Assembly: GCF_032401055.1 (NCBI RefSeq)
Contig: NZ_CP135529.1
Location: 6,012,501-6,076,500 of the forward strand
Length of the DNA stretch: 64,000 bases
From: Tardiphaga sp. 709
Lineage (GTDB): Bacteria > Pseudomonadota > Alphaproteobacteria > Rhizobiales > Xanthobacteraceae
Direction of reading: 5' to 3'
How positions within the stretch are numbered: position 1 is the first letter of the stretch; each line of letters opens with the position of its first letter. Positions 53,029-61,446 of this stretch are shown here, piece by piece. The notes below the pieces were generated by a model. That model did no database searches. It saw only the letters and a program-made list of their open reading frames with translations, and was not told the origin of the DNA. The position numbers and the translations under genes were made by a program.

Positions 53029-53333
53029 TGATGAATTCGCGTCTCACGCCCCGGTTGGGCCGACTATGCGGGTCAGGGACTGGACAAATTGTTAAGGCGC
53101 GTCCGCGGGCTATCGGCGGGCTCTGCTCGTCAAACTTGCATTGCGGAATTAGCTCCGCACTGGAACGCGGAAACTCCGGCACTGGATACCTTGTCGCTCA
53201 CGGCTGGCGATCCGGCTTTACGCGGTTTTAACCAGCCCGCGAGGTCGGCACAGGCTGGCGTCCTGACCTTGCATGGGTCGTCGTCGCCGCGTTATCTCAG
53301 CGCGGTCGCCTTCGGCCCGTGTACGGACCTCTC
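53029..53333. other. Intergenic region between HerA and LysR genes
   Basis: 305 bases between the minus-strand HerA start and the plus-strand LysR start. Short plus-strand frames exist, but none has a convincing product or RBS. It is a likely site for the LysR gene promoter and, on the other strand, for the ATPase. I see no strong repeat. Confidence 0.5.
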
Positions 53334-54230
53334 ATGCGCATCGATTTTCCCGGCCTGCAGGCGTTTCTGAGCATCGCGGAGCGGGGCAGCTTTTCGCGCG
53401 CGGCCGCGCACCTCAATCTGTCGCAGACGGCGCTGAGCCACCGGATCAAGAAACTGGAAGAGGATCTCGGCTTTCAGCTGCTGGCCCGGACCACGCGGCA
53501 GGTGGCACTGACCCCGGCCGGGCTGGAACTGCTGCCGACCGCGCGGCGGATGATCGGGGAGTTGTCCGATTCCATCGATCTGCTGCGGGCACGGGGCCGC
53601 AAGCGGCAGGAACACATCGCGCTCGGCTGCCTGCCGACCATCGCCGCCTATCACCTGCCGCGGGTGCTGAAGCAGTTCAATGCGGTGCATCCGGGGATTT
53701 CGATCAAGATCCACGACAATTCAGCCAGCGAGATTGCCACCTTGGTGCAGTCCGGGCAGGCAGAGTTCGGCATCACGATCACGGCGACCAATATATGGGA
53801 TCTGGCTGTGACCCCGCTGATCAAGGAACGCTTTGTTTTGCTGTGCACCAAGGACCATGCCTTTGCGCAGCGCAAGTTCGTGGCCTGGTCGCATCTCGAG
53901 GATATGCCGCTGATCCGTATCAGCCCGCAGGCTGGCAATAGGGCCCTGATCGACGACGCGCTCGGCCATCGCCGCGACAAGCTGAACTGGCGCTACGAGG
54001 TGCAGCATCTGCAGACGGCGGTGGGCATGGTGTTCGAGAAGCTCGGCATCGCCGTGGTCCCCAGTATCGCAGTGGCGACGCAGGGAACTGCCGGACTGGT
54101 CGCTGTGCCGCTGCGTAATCCCAGCGTCAGCCGCACGGTGGGCATCATCGTTAAGCGCGGACAACCGGTGAGCAAGCCGGCGCAGGCGCTGATCGACCTG
54201 ACCCGCAAATACTTCCAGGCTGCGGGATAA
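53334..54230 (+). CDS. LysR-type transcriptional regulator
   Basis: A 298-residue regulator. Residues 1-60 form the winged-helix domain (FLSIAERGSFSRAAAHLNLSQTALSHRIKKLEEDLG in overlapping parts), followed by a dimerisation helix and a periplasmic-binding-like effector domain. It precedes the catabolic operon on the same strand and is the likely regulator; LysR proteins of this class often respond to an aromatic compound or an acid. The ATG at 53334 (MRIDFPGLQ) is chosen; a GTG at 53319 would add five residues. Nested inverted repeats lie directly after its stop. Confidence 0.9.
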   Translation: MRIDFPGLQAFLSIAERGSFSRAAAHLNLSQTALSHRIKKLEEDLGFQLLARTTRQVALTPAGLELLPTARRMIGELSDSIDLLRARGRKRQEHIALGCLPTIAAYHLPRVLKQFNAVHPGISIKIHDNSASEIATLVQSGQAEFGITITATNIWDLAVTPLIKERFVLLCTKDHAFAQRKFVAWSHLEDMPLIRISPQAGNRALIDDALGHRRDKLNWRYEVQHLQTAVGMVFEKLGIAVVPSIAVATQGTAGLVAVPLRNPSVSRTVGIIVKRGQPVSKPAQALIDLTRKYFQAAG

Positions 54231-54297
54231 TCCGCTCGGTAGGATATATGCAGGAAACTGCACGATTATCCCAGATTTCTCATTTGTTTCATATATC
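54224..54297. promoter_or_regulatory. Nested inverted repeats ahead of the catabolic operon
   Basis: Three nested pairs: GGGATAATC (54224-54232) with GATTATCCC (54264-54272), GATATATG (54243-54250) with CATATATC (54290-54297), and TGCAG-GAAA-CTGCA (54249-54262). They span the end of the LysR gene and lie 116 bases before the Bug gene. ATAT-type spaced palindromes fit a LysR binding site; a weak terminator is the other option. Confidence 0.55.
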
Positions 54298-54412
54298 GGA
54301 ATTGGCTACTGCGGGAGCAGAACGGTCCATGGCCCTGTCGCGATGACGTGACGGCCATGGGTACCGACATAAAAACGGCAAGGGTGGACGCATCAAGCGT
54401 CTTCAATCCATC

Positions 54413-55417
54413 ATGACGCTCCGCTTCCCGACCAGGCTCAAGCATCTGCTGAGCGCCGCGCATTTGGCACTCGGTGCGATATTCCTCACGACCGCGGTAC
54501 CTGTGGCACAGGCCCAGTCCGGCTATCCGACCAAGCCCATTCGCGTGATTGTGCCGTTCGCAGCCGGTGGCGTCGCCGACATCACCATCCGCATCGTGGC
54601 CGAGAAACTCGGCGACAATCTCGGCCAGCGTCTGGTGATCGAGAACATGCCGGGCGCTGGCGGCGTCGTTGCGGCGCGCGCAGTGCTGTCGTCGCAGCCG
54701 GATGGCTATACGCTGGCGCTGCTCAGCAATGGCACCGCCGTCAGCGTGCCGCTGTTCAAGAGCCTGCCATTCGATCCCGTGAAGAACTTTGCGCCGATCT
54801 CCAGCATCGGCTTCTTCGATTTCATCGTCGGCACCAATACGAATTCGCAACACAAGACGCTGGCTGACGTCATCAAGTTCGCGCGCGACAATCCGGGCAA
54901 ACTGAATGTCGGCACCATCAGTGTTGGCAGCACCCAGAACCTGTCGGCCGAATTGCTCAAATCCACGGCCGGGATCAACTTCCAGATCGTGCCCTATCGC
55001 GGAACGCCGGAAGTCATTGTCGGGCTGCTGCGCGAAGACATCGATGTGATGATCGACAATTATGTCGGGATGAAATCCGCGCTGCAGGATGGCAAGATGC
55101 GTCCCGTCGGGACCACGGGCGAATCCCGTTCGGTGATCCTGAAAGACGTGCCGACGATGATCGAAGGCGGCGTGAAGGGCTATGACGTCGTGTCATGGAA
55201 TGCGCTGTTCGCGCCATCGGGTACGCCACCGGAAGCGATTGCGCGGTTGAATGCGGGCCTCCGCGAAGTATTGGCGATGTCCGATGTGAAGCAGAAGCTG
55301 CTCGATCTCGGCATCGAGGCGAAAGCCAGTTCACCCGAGGAATTGAAGGCCCGGTTGGTCGACGACATCGCGAAATGGACCGCCGTGATCGACAAGGCAG
55401 GAATTCCGAAACAATGA
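54413..55417 (+). CDS. Tripartite tricarboxylate transporter-type Bug receptor
   Basis: A 334-residue periplasmic binding protein of the Bug family. A signal peptide occupies about residues 1-35 (cleavage near VAQAQ). The family mark YPTKPIRVIVPFAAGGVADITIR follows in two overlapping parts, then NMPGAGGVVAARAV and DPVKNFAPISSIG. Bug proteins bind organic acids, aromatic acids or amino-acid-derived ligands. No TctA/TctB permease genes are nearby. Its stop overlaps the start of the amidohydrolase gene (ATGA), so it belongs to the catabolic operon and may sense or capture the operon's substrate. Confidence 0.9.
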   Translation: MTLRFPTRLKHLLSAAHLALGAIFLTTAVPVAQAQSGYPTKPIRVIVPFAAGGVADITIRIVAEKLGDNLGQRLVIENMPGAGGVVAARAVLSSQPDGYTLALLSNGTAVSVPLFKSLPFDPVKNFAPISSIGFFDFIVGTNTNSQHKTLADVIKFARDNPGKLNVGTISVGSTQNLSAELLKSTAGINFQIVPYRGTPEVIVGLLREDIDVMIDNYVGMKSALQDGKMRPVGTTGESRSVILKDVPTMIEGGVKGYDVVSWNALFAPSGTPPEAIARLNAGLREVLAMSDVKQKLLDLGIEAKASSPEELKARLVDDIAKWTAVIDKAGIPKQ

Positions 55418-56283
55418 CGAAACCAACCGTTCCCGGTCCCGATCCGCATACTAAGGTGCCGAAGTTCAAGCTGCCGCCGCTGGCCTGCGACGCGCATACG
55501 CATATCTTCGGGCCTGGCGCCAAGTACCCATATGTCGGCTCCTACATTCCGCCGGACGCGCCGCTAGAAGACTTCCAGGCGCTGCACAAGAAGCTCGGCA
55601 TCGGCCGCGCGGTGATCGTCAATGCCAGCGTGCACGGCACCGACAACCGCGTGGCGCTCGACGCCATTGCGGTGAGCGGCGGACGTTACCGCGCGGTGGC
55701 CAATATCGACGGCACGATCACGGAGCAGGGGCTGCGCGAACTCCACGAAGGTGGCTTCCGTGGCTGCCGCTTCAACTTCGTACGGCATCTCGGCGGCACG
55801 CCTGACATGAAGGTGTTCCATCGCATCATCGACATGATCGCGCCGATGGGCTGGCACGTTGATTTGCATTTCGATGCGATCGATCTCCCCGACTATGCTG
55901 ATCTGCTGGCAAAACTGCCGGTGATCTACACCATCGATCACATGGGGCGCGTGAAGGCTGCGGATGGCCTCGAACAGAAGCCGTTCCAGACGCTGATCGA
56001 CTTGATGCAGCGCGACGAGAAATGCTGGGTGAAAGTCTCCGGCTGCGAGCGCGTCACCTCGATGGGGCCGCCATTCACCGATGCGGTGCCATTCGCGAAG
56101 AAAATCTGCGAGACTGCGCCGGATCGCGTGATCTGGGGGACCGACTGGCCGCACCCCAACGTCAAGGCGATGCCGAACGACGGTGATCTCGTCGATCTGA
56201 TCCCGCTCTTCGCGCCGGATCCGGTGATCCAGCAGAAGATCCTCGTCGACAATCCCGCACGATTGTTTGAATTCGACACTTAA
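55414..56283 (+). CDS. Amidohydrolase, LigI/2-pyrone-4,6-dicarboxylate hydrolase-like
   Basis: A 289-residue metal hydrolase of the TIM-barrel amidohydrolase-2 group. The metal motif is CDAHTHIFGPG (His28, His30), the barrel includes YTIDHMGRV and WGTDWPHPN with a catalytic Asp. Length and motifs fit the LigI type, which opens the lactone 2-pyrone-4,6-dicarboxylate in protocatechuate/gallate breakdown; related enzymes hydrolyse other lactones. Overlap with the Bug gene and the next genes (GalB-like, LigK-like) supports a shared lower pathway. Confidence 0.8.
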   Translation: MTKPTVPGPDPHTKVPKFKLPPLACDAHTHIFGPGAKYPYVGSYIPPDAPLEDFQALHKKLGIGRAVIVNASVHGTDNRVALDAIAVSGGRYRAVANIDGTITEQGLRELHEGGFRGCRFNFVRHLGGTPDMKVFHRIIDMIAPMGWHVDLHFDAIDLPDYADLLAKLPVIYTIDHMGRVKAADGLEQKPFQTLIDLMQRDEKCWVKVSGCERVTSMGPPFTDAVPFAKKICETAPDRVIWGTDWPHPNVKAMPNDGDLVDLIPLFAPDPVIQQKILVDNPARLFEFDT

Positions 56284-56311
56284 GCGACGCGAAAATCCGA
56301 AGGAACATCCG

Positions 56312-57034
56312 ATGTCCAAAGCCAAGACCGGCCTCGTGGTCTCAGCCCATCCCGGCGATTTCGTCTGGCGCGCCGGCGGCGCCATCGCGCTTCATGCGAA
56401 GAAGGGCTACCGCGTCAAGATCGTCTGCCTCGCTTACGGCGAGCGCGGCGAGTCGCAATTTGCCTGGAAGCAGGCGGGCATGACGCTCGACAAGGTCAAG
56501 GCTGGGCGGAAAGACGAAGCCGAGCGTGCGGCGGCCTCGCTGGGCGCCGAGATCGAATTTTTCGATGCCGGCGACTATCCGTTGCATCTGACCGAAGCGC
56601 ATAAAGAACGGCTGATCGATGTCTATCGCGAGCTCAATCCGTCATTCGTGCTGACGCATTCGCTCGAAGATCCCTACAATGTCGATCATCCCGCGGCGAC
56701 CGCCGCCGCGCAGGAGGCCCGCATCATCGCGCAGGCGATGGGGCATAAACCTGAAGCGGAATACAGCTATTCCGCGCCGCCGGTGTTCCTGTTCGAGCCG
56801 CATCAGCCGGAGATGTGCAATTTCAAGCCGCAGGTGATCCTCAACATCGATGAGGTCTGGGACATCAAGCGCAAGACGTTTGAAATCCTCGCGGCGCAAA
56901 AGCACCTCTGGGCCTATTATGAGCGGGTAGCCTTGCAGCGCGGCATGCAGGGTGGCCGCAACACCGGCGCGGCCATGACTTATGGGGAAGCCTATCAGCG
57001 CCTGTTCCCGATGACCGTGGAGACACTGGCATGA
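56312..57034 (+). CDS. PIG-L family protein, 4-oxalomesaconate hydratase (GalB)-like
   Basis: A 240-residue zinc protein. Zinc-ligand motif [13 protein letters not shown] (His13, Asp16) and [11 protein letters not shown] (second His) define the PIG-L fold. The block [17 protein letters not shown] followed by REDEAERAA-like ([13 protein letters not shown]) and DAGDYPL closely match what I recall of GalB, a hydratase of 4-oxalomesaconate in gallate breakdown, rather than GlcNAc deacetylases. It sits between LigI-like and LigK-like genes, exactly where that step would fall. An AAGGA lies before the ATG. Confidence 0.83.
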
Positions 57035-57723
57035 AACCCGTCGTCGTCAGGAATATTCAACGCGCGGATGCCGACGTCGTGCAGCGGCTCGGCGCGCTCG
57101 GCGTCTCCACGGTGCACGAGGCCTATGGCCGCTTTGGCCTGATGAAGACCTATATGCGCCCGGTGTGGTCCGGCGCGGAGGCCGCAGGCACGGCGGTCAC
57201 GGTGCTGGCACAGCCCGGCGACAACTGGATGCTGCATGTGGCCATCGAGCAGTGCAAACCCGGCGACATGCTGGTGGTGGCCTGCACGACTGACAACACC
57301 GACGGCATGTTCGGCGATCTGCTCGCGACGTCACTGAAGGCACGCGGTGGCGTTGGCCTGATCATCGATGCCGGATGCCGCGATATCAAGACGCTGCGTG
57401 AGATGGGCTTTCCGGTGTGGTCACGCGCGATCTCGGCCAAGGGGACTGTCAAGGCGACGCTCGGCGCGGTGAACGTGCCTGTGGTCTGCGCCGGCGCGCA
57501 GGTGATGCCGGGTGACGTCATCGTTGCCGATGAAGACGGTGTCGTGGTGATCCCCCGTAAAGATGCCACTGAGGTTGCGGTGAAGGGCGAGAAGCGTTTT
57601 GCCGAAGAAGACGCCAAGCGCCAGAAGCTGGCATCCGGCATTCTCGGTCTCGACATGTACAATATGCGCGAGCCGCTGGCGAAAGCGGGTCTGGTTTACG
57701 TCGACGATCCCGATCAGGCTTGA
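57031..57723 (+). CDS. 4-carboxy-4-hydroxy-2-oxoadipate aldolase, LigK/ProA-like
   Basis: A 230-residue RraA-fold aldolase that splits 4-carboxy-4-hydroxy-2-oxoadipate to pyruvate and oxaloacetate. Conserved text such as [59 protein letters not shown] (Arg-Asp pair) and [11 protein letters not shown]-like [19 protein letters not shown] is typical of LigK and ProA. It overlaps the GalB-like gene by four bases (ATGA) and is the last lower-pathway enzyme here. Confidence 0.9.
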
Positions 57724-57740
57724 TCGGGAAGGAGGCTGGC

Positions 57741-58589
57741 ATGCGGCTTCGTATTCTGCTCGGCGATCATCCGCATACGACTGCATTGAAATCCCGCGCG
57801 ATCACGTCTGATCTCGTCGAACTGGACTTTGCCACGTACACGCCGACCAACAAGGGCTTCAAGCCCATGGTGCGCGACGGCGCTTTCGACGTCGCCGAAA
57901 TGGCCATCGTCACCTATCTGATGGCCAGGAGTTACGACAAACCGATGGTGTTGATGCCAAGCGTGATGATGGCGCGGCATCAGTTTGGTTTTGCGGTCAC
58001 CAACCCGGCAGCTCGCATCATCGGGCCGAAATGCCTCGAGGGCAAACGTGTGGGCATCCGCTCCTTTACGACGACGACGGGCGCGTGGCTGCGCGGCATG
58101 CTCGCCAATGACTACGGCGTCAATCTCGATGCGATCGAATGGGTCACCTTCGAGGAACCCCACGTCGCCGAATATGTCGACAGCACAACCAAGGCGCCTG
58201 CCGGCAAGGCGATCATGCAGATGCTGTTCGATGGCGAACTGGACGCCGTGCTCGGCGAGAAGAGTGACGATCCACGGGTGGCGCACCTATTCCCCGACGT
58301 GGCCGCTGAAGAGAAAGCCTGGCTGGCCAGGCATGGCGTGGTGCCGATCAACCATATGGTAGTCGTCAGCAAGCAATTGTCCGATACGCGGCCCGACGTG
58401 GTGCGCGAGCTGCAGCGCATGCTGGAGGCGAGCAGGGCGGCTGCAACGGGCAAGGTGCCGGCCTTCAGCAAGGATGACATGACGCGATCGCTGGAACTGA
58501 TCACGGACTATTCCGCACAGCAGAGACTGATCCCGCGCAGGTTCAGCGTTGATGAACTGTTCGACGACGTGACCAGAAAGCTGAGATGA
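57741..58589 (+). CDS. 4,5-dihydroxyphthalate decarboxylase family protein
   Basis: A 282-residue protein with a periplasmic-binding-protein-like fold but no signal peptide. MRLRILLGDHPHTTALKSRAI opens it (start ATG 57741 with AAGGAGG upstream), and blocks NKGFKPMVRDGAFDVAEMAI, FTTTTGAWLRGML and ITDYSAQQRLIP recur in 4,5-dihydroxyphthalate decarboxylases. Those convert 4,5-dihydroxyphthalate to protocatechuate. Because the fold is also used for substrate binding, I call the family rather than the reaction. It begins 17 bases after the LigK-like gene. Confidence 0.78.
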   Translation: MRLRILLGDHPHTTALKSRAITSDLVELDFATYTPTNKGFKPMVRDGAFDVAEMAIVTYLMARSYDKPMVLMPSVMMARHQFGFAVTNPAARIIGPKCLEGKRVGIRSFTTTTGAWLRGMLANDYGVNLDAIEWVTFEEPHVAEYVDSTTKAPAGKAIMQMLFDGELDAVLGEKSDDPRVAHLFPDVAAEEKAWLARHGVVPINHMVVVSKQLSDTRPDVVRELQRMLEASRAAATGKVPAFSKDDMTRSLELITDYSAQQRLIPRRFSVDELFDDVTRKLR

Positions 58590-58603
58590 ATTGGCCTCTC
58601 AGC

Positions 58604-58697
58604 CGTCATTGCGAGGAGCGAAGCGACGCGGCAATCCAGTGAGCCGCAAGTGAAGCAAGACTGGATTGCTTCGTCGCAAGGGCTCCTCGCAATGACG
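58604..58697. repeat. REP-like palindromic element inside the catabolic operon
   Basis: A 94-base element with CGTCATTGCGAGGAGC at its left edge and the complementary GCTCCTCGCAATGACG at its right edge, and inner GCAATCCAGT/ACTGGATTGC arms. It is a very widespread intergenic repeat in alphaproteobacteria. It separates the decarboxylase-like gene from the dioxygenase gene and may form a strong hairpin. Confidence 0.85.
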
Positions 58698-58732
58698 GGG
58701 ATAGGCCGTGAGGTTTCTAAGAGGATATGGCC

Positions 58733-59692
58733 ATGCTTCCCGAACCCATCTTCGATCTCGCCCATCTCGGCCATCTCGAACTGCTGACGCCGAAGCCGGA
58801 CGAGAGCCTGAAATTCTTCGTCGACGTGATGGGCATGACCGTGTCGGGCCGGCAGGGCGAGTCGGTCTATCTGCGCGGCTGGGACGACTATGAGCGCTAT
58901 TCGCTGAAGCTGACGGCGTCGAACACGTCGGGTATGGAGCATATGGCGCTACGGGCGCGCAGCCCGCAGGCGCTTGAGCGCCGCGTGGCGGCACTGAAGG
59001 GCTCTGGTTACGATATCGGCTGGACCGACGGCGATCTCGGCCATGGGCCGGCATTTCGCTGCCGTGATCCCGACGGCCATATCGTCGAACTCTATTACGA
59101 GACCGAATGGTACGAGGCGCCGCCGGAACTCAAGCCGGCGCTTAAAAATCAGGCGCAGCGCTATCCGGCGCGCGGCATCAATGTGCGGCGGCTCGATCAC
59201 CTCAATTGCCTTGCGGTGGACATCAAGGCCAACCGCGAGTTTTTCGAGCACTATATGGGGCTCCGCCTGACCGAGCAGATCGTGCTCAATGACGGCACGG
59301 AAGCCGCGATGTGGATGACCATGTCGAACAAGAGCTACGACTTCGCCTATTCGCGCGATCACTCCGGCACCAAAGGGCGCTTTCACCATGTCACCTACGC
59401 GCTGGACAGCCGCGAAGACATTCTGCGCGCAGCTGATATCTTTCTGGAAAACGGCGTCTTCATCGAGACCGGACCGCACAAACATGCGATCCAGCAGACC
59501 TTCTTCCTCTATGTCTATGAGCCCGGCGGCAACCGCGTCGAAGTCGCCAATGCCGGCGCACGGCTGATCCTGGCCCCGGACTGGAAGCCCATCGTCTGGA
59601 CCGAGGAGGAGCGCAAGAAGGGCCAGGCCTGGGGCCTCAAGACCATCGAGTCGTTCCACACCCACGGCACGCCGCCGGTGCCCCACAAGTAG
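58733..59692 (+). CDS. Type I extradiol ring-cleavage dioxygenase (VOC family)
   Basis: A 319-residue protein with two VOC modules, as in catechol 2,3-dioxygenase. The N-terminal module is LAHLGHLELLTPKPDESLKF, and the catalytic C-terminal one has the metal ligands His in VRRLDHLNC, His in GRFHHVTYAL, and Glu in GNRVEVANAG. It should use Fe(II) to cleave a dihydroxylated ring next to the hydroxyls. The ATG at 58733 sits 7 bases from GAGGA; 58727 is too close. It is downstream of the REP-like element. Ring substrate unknown. Confidence 0.85.
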   Translation: MLPEPIFDLAHLGHLELLTPKPDESLKFFVDVMGMTVSGRQGESVYLRGWDDYERYSLKLTASNTSGMEHMALRARSPQALERRVAALKGSGYDIGWTDGDLGHGPAFRCRDPDGHIVELYYETEWYEAPPELKPALKNQAQRYPARGINVRRLDHLNCLAVDIKANREFFEHYMGLRLTEQIVLNDGTEAAMWMTMSNKSYDFAYSRDHSGTKGRFHHVTYALDSREDILRAADIFLENGVFIETGPHKHAIQQTFFLYVYEPGGNRVEVANAGARLILAPDWKPIVWTEEERKKGQAWGLKTIESFHTHGTPPVPHK

Positions 59693-59764
59693 CAAGCCGC
59701 ACTGCCGGGATTGGTACGCGTCTTGCTTTGTTGACCCCAGGTTGTTTCTGACGTGGGGGCGAGC

Positions 59765-61186
59765 ATGACTAACTCTGAGTTGCGGGCAGACATCCACAGT
59801 ATCGAACCGATCCCCGATGCCGACCGGGATTCCACCGGGCCGCAGCAGATGTGGATCTGGGCCGGCGCCAATATCGCCCCGGTGAATTGGGCGCTCGGCG
59901 CGCTTGGTATCATTCTCAAGCTCGGTCTGTGGGAGACGATCGCGGTCATCGTCATCGGCAACGCGGCGGGCTCCGCGATCTTCGCGGCTTTCACGGTCAT
60001 GGGCCACAAGACCGGCGTCAACCAGATGGTCCTCGCGCGCTCGGCCTTTGGGCGCCGCGGCGCCTATCTGCCGAGCCTGTTGATGTTCCTGATGACGCTC
60101 GGCTGGATCGGCGTGAATACGTATTTTCCGGTCAAGATCTCGATGGCCATTCTCGGCCAGTTCGGGATCGCCGATAGCTGGTTCGCCAACCTCGTGGTCA
60201 TCACCATCGTGATGGTCACGCAGGTCGTAATCGGCACTTACGGCTTCTATGCGATCCGCACCTTCGAGAAATACACCGTGCCGGTCACGGTGGTGATCAT
60301 GGTGCTGATGAGCGTGCTGGCCTGGAGCCAGCCCGGCGTCGTCAACTGGAACCACACCACGTCGCTGCCGCCGGGACCGCATCTGGCGATGCTGTCGCTG
60401 CTGATGACCGCCGTCGGCGTCGGTTGGGGCATTTCATGGGTGACCTGGGCATCGGACTATTCGCGCTTCGTGCCGCGTTCGACATCGTCGAAGGCCGTGT
60501 TCTGGTACAGCTATCTCGGCATGTTCGTGCCGTCGGTGTGGCTGGCCATTCTCGGCGCCACCATCGCGTCGGTGACGCTCGACACCGATCCTGCCAAGAT
60601 GGTGTCGGCGGTGTTCGGTGGCATCGCCAGCATTCTCGTGCTGCTGCTGGTGCTGCACGGGCCGATCGCCACCAACATCCTCAATGTCTATTCGTCGGCG
60701 CTGGCGGCGCTCAGCATGGGCGTGCGCTTCTCGCGCACAGCACTGGCGCTGATCGTCGGCATCGCGGGCTATGCGGTGACGGTGTATTTCATCTTCGCGC
60801 CGTCTTTCGCCAAGGCGTTCGATAACTGGCTGATCAGCCTGCTGATGTGGATGAGCCCCTATGCCGGCGTGGTGCTGGCCGACTTCTTCATCAGGCGGAA
60901 AAGCCAGATCGATATCGCCGAGCTCTACAAGTCGCCGGAGACCAGCATCTATGGCGACATCAACTGGAGCGGGATGATCGCATTCTTCGCGGGCCTGATC
61001 GCCACCTGGCTGTTCCAGGATGGCCTGGTGCCTGCGTTGCAGGGGCCGATTTCGATCAACCTTCTCGGCGGCGCGGATCTGAGCTGGCTGGCGGGCATCG
61101 CCGTCGGCGGCGGTGTCTATCTGGCGGTCAGCAGGCGCCTGGCGCCGGAGCCGATGGCTATCCCGGTCGGTGGGCCGGGCGAATAG
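59765..61186 (+). CDS. NCS1 family nucleobase/cytosine-type permease
   Basis: A 473-residue inner-membrane transporter with about twelve helices. NCS1 marks include GPQQMWIWAGANIAPVNW-like text at the N-terminus, GNAAGSAIFAAFTVMGHKTG, and WGISWVTWASDYSRFVP in the middle. Characterised NCS1 proteins import cytosine, allantoin, uracil, hydantoins or thiamine. In this operon it is the likely uptake system, suggesting a nitrogen-containing ring or a compound that resembles one. The ATG at 59765 is used; 59753 is possible. A hairpin follows at 61199. Confidence 0.9.
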   Translation: MTNSELRADIHSIEPIPDADRDSTGPQQMWIWAGANIAPVNWALGALGIILKLGLWETIAVIVIGNAAGSAIFAAFTVMGHKTGVNQMVLARSAFGRRGAYLPSLLMFLMTLGWIGVNTYFPVKISMAILGQFGIADSWFANLVVITIVMVTQVVIGTYGFYAIRTFEKYTVPVTVVIMVLMSVLAWSQPGVVNWNHTTSLPPGPHLAMLSLLMTAVGVGWGISWVTWASDYSRFVPRSTSSKAVFWYSYLGMFVPSVWLAILGATIASVTLDTDPAKMVSAVFGGIASILVLLLVLHGPIATNILNVYSSALAALSMGVRFSRTALALIVGIAGYAVTVYFIFAPSFAKAFDNWLISLLMWMSPYAGVVLADFFIRRKSQIDIAELYKSPETSIYGDINWSGMIAFFAGLIATWLFQDGLVPALQGPISINLLGGADLSWLAGIAVGGGVYLAVSRRLAPEPMAIPVGGPGE

Positions 61187-61372: not shown

Positions 61373-61446
61373 TGGGGAATGGTGTAACGGTAGCACAACA
61401 GACTCTGACTCTGTTTGTCTAGGTTCGAATCCTAGTTCCCCAGCCA
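61373..61446 (+). tRNA. tRNA-Gln (anticodon CUG)
   Basis: A 74-base tRNA including encoded CCA. The acceptor stem is TGGGGAA (61373-61379) with TTCCCCA (61436-61442), discriminator G and CCA at 61444-61446. The anticodon loop CT-CTG-AC has CTG at 61405-61407, and the T-arm GGTTCGAATCC is standard. It reads CAG glutamine codons. Adjacent sequence suggests it is an integration site. Confidence 0.96.

Follow-up and report, generated by a model that had tools for sequence, protein, structure and literature searches.

The window, a 64,000-nucleotide stretch of Tardiphaga sp. 709 (contig NZ_CP135529.1, positions 6,012,501 to 6,076,500), contains an operon of eight genes that probably encodes a pathway for gallate and/or 3-O-methylgallate, in which a type I extradiol dioxygenase of the VOC family takes the place of GalA, DesB or DesZ. 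The genes lie on the forward strand at positions 53319-61186 and encode, in this order, a LysR-type regulator, a TctC/Bug-type receptor, LigI-, GalB- and LigK-type enzymes, a protein with a substrate-binding protein fold (hereafter the SBP protein), the VOC enzyme and an NCS1-type permease. The operon was confirmed at this place, and all eight genes named in a preliminary description of the sequence were found on the same strand with profile and Protein Data Bank (PDB) matches. The reactions discussed below are predicted activities, as is any choice between gallate and 3-O-methylgallate.

The VOC enzyme (58727-59692, + strand) scores 366 bits against the catechol 2,3-dioxygenase profile TIGR03211 (cut-off 320.2), matches PF00903 in two stretches and has no match to the LigB-family domain PF02900. 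It is thus a type I dioxygenase and not a member of the LigAB/GalA class, as the preliminary description had recognized. The metal ligands His158, His221 and Glu272, together with His253 and Tyr262, are invariant in 38 VOC sequences (alignment A1) and are shared with four outgroup sequences. We take these residues to be the 2-His-1-Glu iron site and the acid-base His/Tyr pair, which, with the paired VOC modules, characterize type I extradiol dioxygenases. The Foldseek search matched the fold to AphC (PDB 7q2a, TMq 0.90) and also to XylE. The closest solved sequences are 9wgj (6.5e-125), AphC and XylE; 9wgj is deposited as "Catechol 1,2-dioxygenase" and is not in the Foldseek library used. A related chain has therefore already been solved, and the family may be under study elsewhere. 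The VOC enzyme shares the fold and the 2-His-1-Glu site with AphC of Rhodococcus RHA1 and other type I catechol 2,3-dioxygenases, but its identity to this group in the Foldseek list is at most 39%, and it is linked to a 4-oxalomesaconate (OMA) pathway.

A quick tree places 47 VOC sequences, with those of Thermus oshimai, Agrobacterium and Pantoea among them, in a single group (SH-aLRT 96), although the outgroup branches are very long and the root is unsure. A 48% identical homologue of Thermus thermophilus, which sits with 4-hydroxy-2-oxovalerate aldolase genes, falls outside the group. Several residues, among them Asn201, Tyr204, Arg229, His251, Gln256 and Arg279, are conserved in at least 95% of the 46 in-group rows, and none of the four outgroup rows has them; a second alignment (A2) omits L183, which has a stop in the frame given, and L185. 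Some of these group-specific residues adjoin His253, where they could read a third ring substituent, which is suggestive only.

The lower steps resemble the protocatechuate 4,5-cleavage or gallate pathway by homology, in line with the earlier assignment of three enzymes. The LigI-like protein (55414-56283, +), a putative 2-pyrone-4,6-dicarboxylate (PDC) hydrolase, matches Amidohydro_2 (PF04909, 1.3e-61), and its best PDB match is LigI (4d8l, 8e-64). The DAHxH and GTDWPHPN motifs, and with them the catalytic Asp, are retained, so that the protein has the features of a LigI, with the activity predicted from sequence. Its score against NF042924 (4-sulfomuconolactone hydrolase) is 289 bits, under the cut-off of 500. 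The GalB-like protein (56312-57034, +) has a PIG-L fold (PF02585), and residues 5-240 match 4-oxalomesaconate hydratase (5cgz, 9e-84). The LigK/GalC-type 4-carboxy-4-hydroxy-2-oxoadipate aldolase (57031-57723, +) scores 361.8 bits against TIGR02798 (cut-off 304.5) and matches PDB 3noj (3e-84). The pair of GalB hydratase and GalC/LigK aldolase that marks a gal pathway is therefore present by homology.

The genome of the strain (6.36 Mb, listed as 100% complete) has no match to PF02900, to the LigC domain PF19858 or to PF04303, the PrpF family of GalD-type OMA tautomerases. The absence of a LigC dehydrogenase, previously described for the eight genes, thus holds genome-wide, and the combination of LigAB and LigC that defines protocatechuate 4,5-cleavage (lig/pmd) is lacking. 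Because LigB, LigC and PrpF are all missing, the VOC enzyme is the sole apparent feeder of the LigI, GalB and LigK enzymes.

We surveyed 397 genomes drawn from the order, calling the VOC enzyme at E <= 1e-60 and a strong LigB at E <= 1e-50. The VOC enzyme was found in 59 genomes, LigK over its cut-off in 88 and strong LigB in 49; PF02900 at 1e-5 matches 167 of the 397, and one VOC genome (G211, 5.7e-46) is just outside the strong-LigB threshold. LigK is present in 55/59 VOC genomes versus 33/338 genomes without the VOC enzyme (Fisher p 4e-39, a descriptive value). The association persists outside the family of the strain (42/45 versus 31/333), among genomes without strong LigB (42/46 versus 9/302), among those without any PF02900 match (19/21 versus 4/209) and when counted by genus (29/30 VOC genera versus 15/111 others). 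The 88 LigK genomes divide into 42 with the VOC enzyme only, 24 with strong LigB only, 13 with both and nine with neither. LigC occurs in 25 genomes, all of which have strong LigB (the list omits G026, not a VOC genome, whose match spans 45 residues at the end of a contig). Only three of the 59 VOC genomes have LigC, all three together with LigB, and none of the 46 VOC genomes without strong LigB has it. Given the co-occurrence with LigK and the absence of LigC, the VOC enzyme looks like a replacement of the LigB ring cleavers, acting on a substrate that is not cleaved to a semialdehyde.

Cleavage of protocatechuate at the 4,5 position gives a semialdehyde, which is oxidized by LigC to PDC. 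Gallate cleavage gives OMA directly, and 3-O-methylgallate is cleaved to 4-carboxy-2-hydroxy-6-methoxy-6-oxohexa-2,4-dienoate (CHMOD), which cyclizes to PDC. PMC12314914 outlines the routes and describes the cyclization as spontaneous, with a half-life near 70 min. The missing LigC therefore fits gallate or 3-O-methylgallate, in which the third ring oxygen removes the need for this enzyme, and no exotic substrate is required.

The genes around the VOC enzyme in relatives point in the same direction. Within 10 kb of it in the 45 VOC genomes outside the family, we counted GalB in 28, OMA tautomerase in 27, LigK in 26, LigM in five, PurU in five, a MetF-like protein in six and k15, a 6-phosphogluconate-dehydrogenase-like protein, in 20; these counts use our own identity thresholds, and several loci stop at contig ends. 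One OMA tautomerase scores 521.5 bits against NF033377 (cut-off 440) and one LigM scores 654 against NF047885 (cut-off 580), the other LigM copies being assigned by 68-83% identity. On the plasmid pAt of Agrobacterium Kin003 from walnut, genes for GalB, the VOC enzyme, LigK, OMA tautomerase and a tannase (PF07519, 6.8e-131) are consecutive. The order GalB-VOC-LigK-tautomerase is also found on a Thioclava plasmid and, followed by a carboxylesterase, on an A. vitis plasmid. Pantoea plasmid pGABEKP28_1 carries galB, LigK, OMA tautomerase, DUF1932, an AAHS transporter and the VOC enzyme, and a plasmid of an Agrobacterium from rose carries DctA, LigK, tautomerase, TctC and the VOC enzyme. Roseomonas pRo-1 combines LigK, an SBP protein (37%), TctC, a LigI-like amidohydrolase, DUF1932 and a LigA+LigB pair with an alpha/beta hydrolase, the VOC enzyme (80%), a LIV transporter and VanA/VanB. 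The FAD monooxygenase beside some VOC genes has no NCBIfam match and was left unnamed. From this co-occurrence and these neighbours we infer a gallate dioxygenase activity of the VOC enzyme. The preliminary description had left the substrate unassigned, but the choice is narrower than that: the co-occurrence, the OMA tautomerase, LigM, VanAB and the one tannase indicate gallate or 3-O-methylgallate.

In the proposed pathway, the VOC enzyme would act as an iron extradiol dioxygenase on compounds derived from plant phenols such as syringate and would open the ring at the bond carrying the third oxygen substituent. The product would be a carboxylate or an ester, that is, OMA or a compound lactonizing to PDC. 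The LigI-like enzyme would convert the pyrone to OMA, the GalB-like enzyme would hydrate OMA, and LigK would cleave the hydrated product to pyruvate and oxaloacetate. The Bug receptor and the NCS1 permease are the presumed uptake parts, and LysR the presumed regulator.

Several observations weigh against this interpretation. GalB, LigK and OMA tautomerase are all absent within 10 kb of the VOC gene in 16 of the 45 genomes outside the family, and none of the three is listed within that distance in Chimaeribacter; no GalB is listed in the stretches of Roseomonas or Methylobacterium. The tannase link is a single locus among those searched, a set that left out L042-L071 and the later-fetched loci. 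Near the VOC gene of Thermus oshimai, whose product is 66% identical, lie genes for an aldehyde dehydrogenase and for a 4-hydroxybenzoate 3-monooxygenase (PobA-like). Two relatives (L098 and L107) score under the catechol 2,3-dioxygenase cut-off, four of the 59 VOC genomes have no over-cut-off LigK, and LigM was not found in the genome of the strain, in a search made without a positive control. The threshold for strong LigB was chosen after the scores had been seen, and the genomes share ancestry and are not independent, so that the p-values are descriptive only. In addition, 24 of the 49 strong-LigB genomes also lack LigC, and its absence therefore marks a semialdehyde-free route only in part.

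As an alternative, the VOC enzyme could cleave protocatechuate as a type I 4,5-dioxygenase, with the semialdehyde product being oxidized by a dehydrogenase other than LigC before LigI acts. The neighbours of the Thermus oshimai enzyme would suit such a route, as would LigM, which is also a vanillate demethylase according to its NCBIfam name and would thereby yield protocatechuate, and k15, which could supply the oxidation. The cluster on T. oshimai plasmid pTHEOS01 (L191), in which VOC-GalB-LigK genes are accompanied by those for aldehyde dehydrogenase, DUF6282 and PobA-like proteins, may represent a version of this pathway for protocatechuate. For the operon in the window, the protocatechuate route appears quite improbable: none of its eight proteins is a dehydrogenase, and LigC is found in 25 of the 49 strong-LigB genomes and in none of the VOC genomes without strong LigB. 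The genome has six intradiol dioxygenase matches, two of them adjacent, which could serve an ordinary protocatechuate route. As for k15 (NAD_binding_2 and DUF1932), which accompanies both VOC and LigAB clusters (L072:8039-8917, L127, L149, L190, L194), we set it aside as a LigC substitute because it is likewise found in LigAB clusters that already encode a LigC-like PF19858 protein (L147, L149, L150).

Within the favoured gallate/3-O-methylgallate pathway, it is conceivable, though rather less than an even prospect, that 3-O-methylgallate is the main substrate: VanAB would make it from syringate, the VOC enzyme would convert it to CHMOD and hence PDC, and LigI would take the PDC. The genome has a LigI-like gene and no PrpF tautomerase, and it encodes a VanA-type oxygenase 73% identical to the Roseomonas VanA; the spontaneous cyclization of CHMOD cited above would also suit this route. 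On the other hand, the LigA+LigB pair, hydrolase and VanAB close to the VOC gene in Roseomonas suggest that in this organism 3-O-methylgallate may be handled by the LigB enzyme, and the tannase of Agrobacterium would release gallate. The preliminary description had taken the NCS1 importer as a sign of a nitrogen-containing ring. The NCS1 gene does directly follow the VOC gene in the window, but we regard the degradation of a nitrogen heterocycle as very improbable and rejected it, because the gene is not conserved. It occurs in six of 41 related loci, whereas DctA-type, TRAP, LIV-ABC or AAHS carriers are found in other relatives. The permease (59765-61186, +; PF02133 9.8e-48, far above the cut-off) reaches 157 bits against TIGR00800, under the cut-off of 353, and is only weakly similar to Mhp1 (4e-11); no gene for the release of a ring nitrogen was recognized among the eight. 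The six NCS1 loci are five from Tardiphaga and one titled Bradyrhizobium sp. NFR13, which is 92-99% identical across the operon; the gene is absent from the locus of a Tardiphaga metagenome-assembled genome (L006).

The SBP protein (57741-58589, +) is related to 4,5-dihydroxyphthalate decarboxylase of Comamonas testosteroni (9jp7; E 1.2e-18, Foldseek TMq 0.89). It has no NCBIfam match and no visible leader; in the structural model (pLDDT 94.8) the first strand is at residues 2-6. Since this decarboxylase is its closest solved structure, the SBP protein might be a true decarboxylase that produces the VOC substrate from a polyhydroxyphthalate. We consider this somewhat unlikely. The identity in the Foldseek match is 23%, the operon context differs, and no ring-hydroxylating phthalate dioxygenase is encoded among the eight proteins. 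Furthermore, none of the 45 VOC genomes outside the family has the SBP protein (at least 55% identity) in its fetched loci; 37 of them show OMA tautomerase there and 39 LigK.

In the fetched loci, the SBP protein is found in 14/14 VOC genomes of the family and 0/45 others, and OMA tautomerase in 0/14 and 37/45, respectively, a contrast that is confounded with taxonomy and includes three family loci of only ~4 kb. A broader proposal combines a widespread VOC gallate/3-O-methylgallate dioxygenase family, spanning Hyphomicrobiales, other Alphaproteobacteria, Enterobacterales and Thermus, with an SBP-fold enzyme that replaces the PrpF-type tautomerase in Tardiphaga and Bradyrhizobium. This double displacement is unlikely in our estimate, which we lowered slightly because the family-wide contrast is not significant: an over-cut-off tautomerase occurs in one of 13 genomes with the SBP protein at >=58% identity (G112) and in 32 of 106 others (Fisher p 0.11). 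Mutual exclusion of the two proteins is thus not supported, as G112 has both. Three further genomes of the 13 (G143, G465 and G484) have below-cut-off PrpF relatives, and G505 has a 51% identical SBP protein beside the tautomerase. Alternatively, spontaneous tautomerization may make a tautomerase unnecessary. Replacement of k15 by the SBP protein was ruled out, because both occur together in eight clusters (L127-L134). Most of the more distant SBP relatives (45-53%) show no linkage to LigK.

The same gene order was sought elsewhere, as the preliminary description had proposed, and was found. The 41 related loci, retrieved from genome_contigs with the SBP protein as query, contain the VOC enzyme in 37 cases, GalB in 35 and LigK in 34 (omitting a 38% LigK-like match in L038), mostly in one order; the gene association is therefore not due to chance. 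In the nearest locus, of Tardiphaga sp. P9-11 (L001), the eight proteins are 93-100% identical. In Bradyrhizobium-type loci the VOC enzyme is 89-94% identical to that of the window and the SBP protein 62-71%, so that the dioxygenase appears to be more constrained. In six genomes of a genus taken as Bradyrhizobium (g2), the VOC gene lies 24-27 kb from a TetR-LigI-GalB-LigK-SBP-k15 cluster, and some of these split clusters carry a DctA-type carrier. The VOC gene of the split-pathway genomes (L112-L118, L127-L134) stands alone beside a HerA-like anchor gene, and in G340 and G112 it is on a different contig from the rest of the pathway. A locus of G216 (L119) has LigI, GalB, SBP and VOC genes; LigK was found neither there nor elsewhere in this genome at E <= 1e-60. 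In L022 and L023 the SBP gene adjoins an MFS gene, with no VOC, GalB or LigK gene in the locus; these may be remnants. Bradyrhizobium-type loci encode a cytochrome P450 (PF00067, cluster k12; L024:11989-13197 and 16 other loci), a possible aromatic oxygenase, downstream of the VOC gene.

Compared with the gal pathway of Pseudomonas putida KT2440 (GalA, GalD, GalB, GalC and GalT), the operon shares the GalB and GalC/LigK-type enzymes and the lack of LigC. In contrast, GalA of the LigB family is replaced by the VOC enzyme, a LigI-like enzyme and an SBP-fold gene are added, the transporters are different and the genome has no PrpF-type GalD, although a GalD-type OMA tautomerase is present near the VOC gene in many relatives. 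The syringate/3-O-methylgallate pathways of Sphingobium SYK-6 and Pseudomonas NGC7 (DesZ, LigAB, MgaAB) resemble the operon in that PDC passes via LigI and LigK acts last, and LigM or VanAB demethylase genes adjoin the cluster in some relatives; the hydratase is LigJ there and GalB here. The ring cleavers named in PMC12314914 are LigAB, LigA2B2, DesZ, DesB/GalA and MgaAB. According to PMC4250580, gallate and methylgallate dioxygenases are LigB-type; AromaDeg assigns gallate dioxygenases to the LigB superfamily, and gallate is not among its VOC substrates as listed there. We found no type I gallate dioxygenase among the titles and opening lines of abstracts listed by our searches of the open-access PMC literature.

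If the assignment is true, a second, unrelated enzyme family would be responsible for gallate ring cleavage, within a group currently annotated as "catechol 2,3-dioxygenase" or "VOC family protein". Such a family would account for 42 of the order's 51 LigK genomes that have no strong LigB, and the use of gallate, syringate and tannin by Bradyrhizobium-type and other soil or plant bacteria may then be mis-predicted. The enzyme would also be a new ring cleaver for PDC production or lignin funnelling.

The remaining genes complete the operon. The LysR-type regulator (53334-54230, +; PF03466 1.1e-44, PF00126 8.4e-23) could start at GTG 53319 or ATG 53334, both of which are possible. Its relatives (55-61% identity) occur in ten loci of the order holding GalB/LigK or VOC genes, and it is likely the regulator of the operon, presumably as an activator. 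The TctC/Bug-type periplasmic receptor (54413-55417, +; PF03401 6.9e-62) overlaps the LigI gene by a 4-bp ATGA at 55414, as does GalB with LigK at 57031. The other gaps are 28 bp (LigI-GalB), 17 bp (LigK-SBP), 137 bp (SBP-VOC) and 72 bp (VOC-NCS1). The 137-bp spacer is occupied by a hairpin, a long imperfect palindrome at 58603-58698 (minimum free energy -78.6 kcal/mol, z -8.5). Because the spacer is just ~30 bp in the relatives L001 and L002, the palindrome may have been inserted. A single copy of its 25-base end is present in the window, so that its status as a repeat is not supported. A tRNA-Gln gene (CTG anticodon) at 61373-61446 lies directly downstream of the NCS1 gene.

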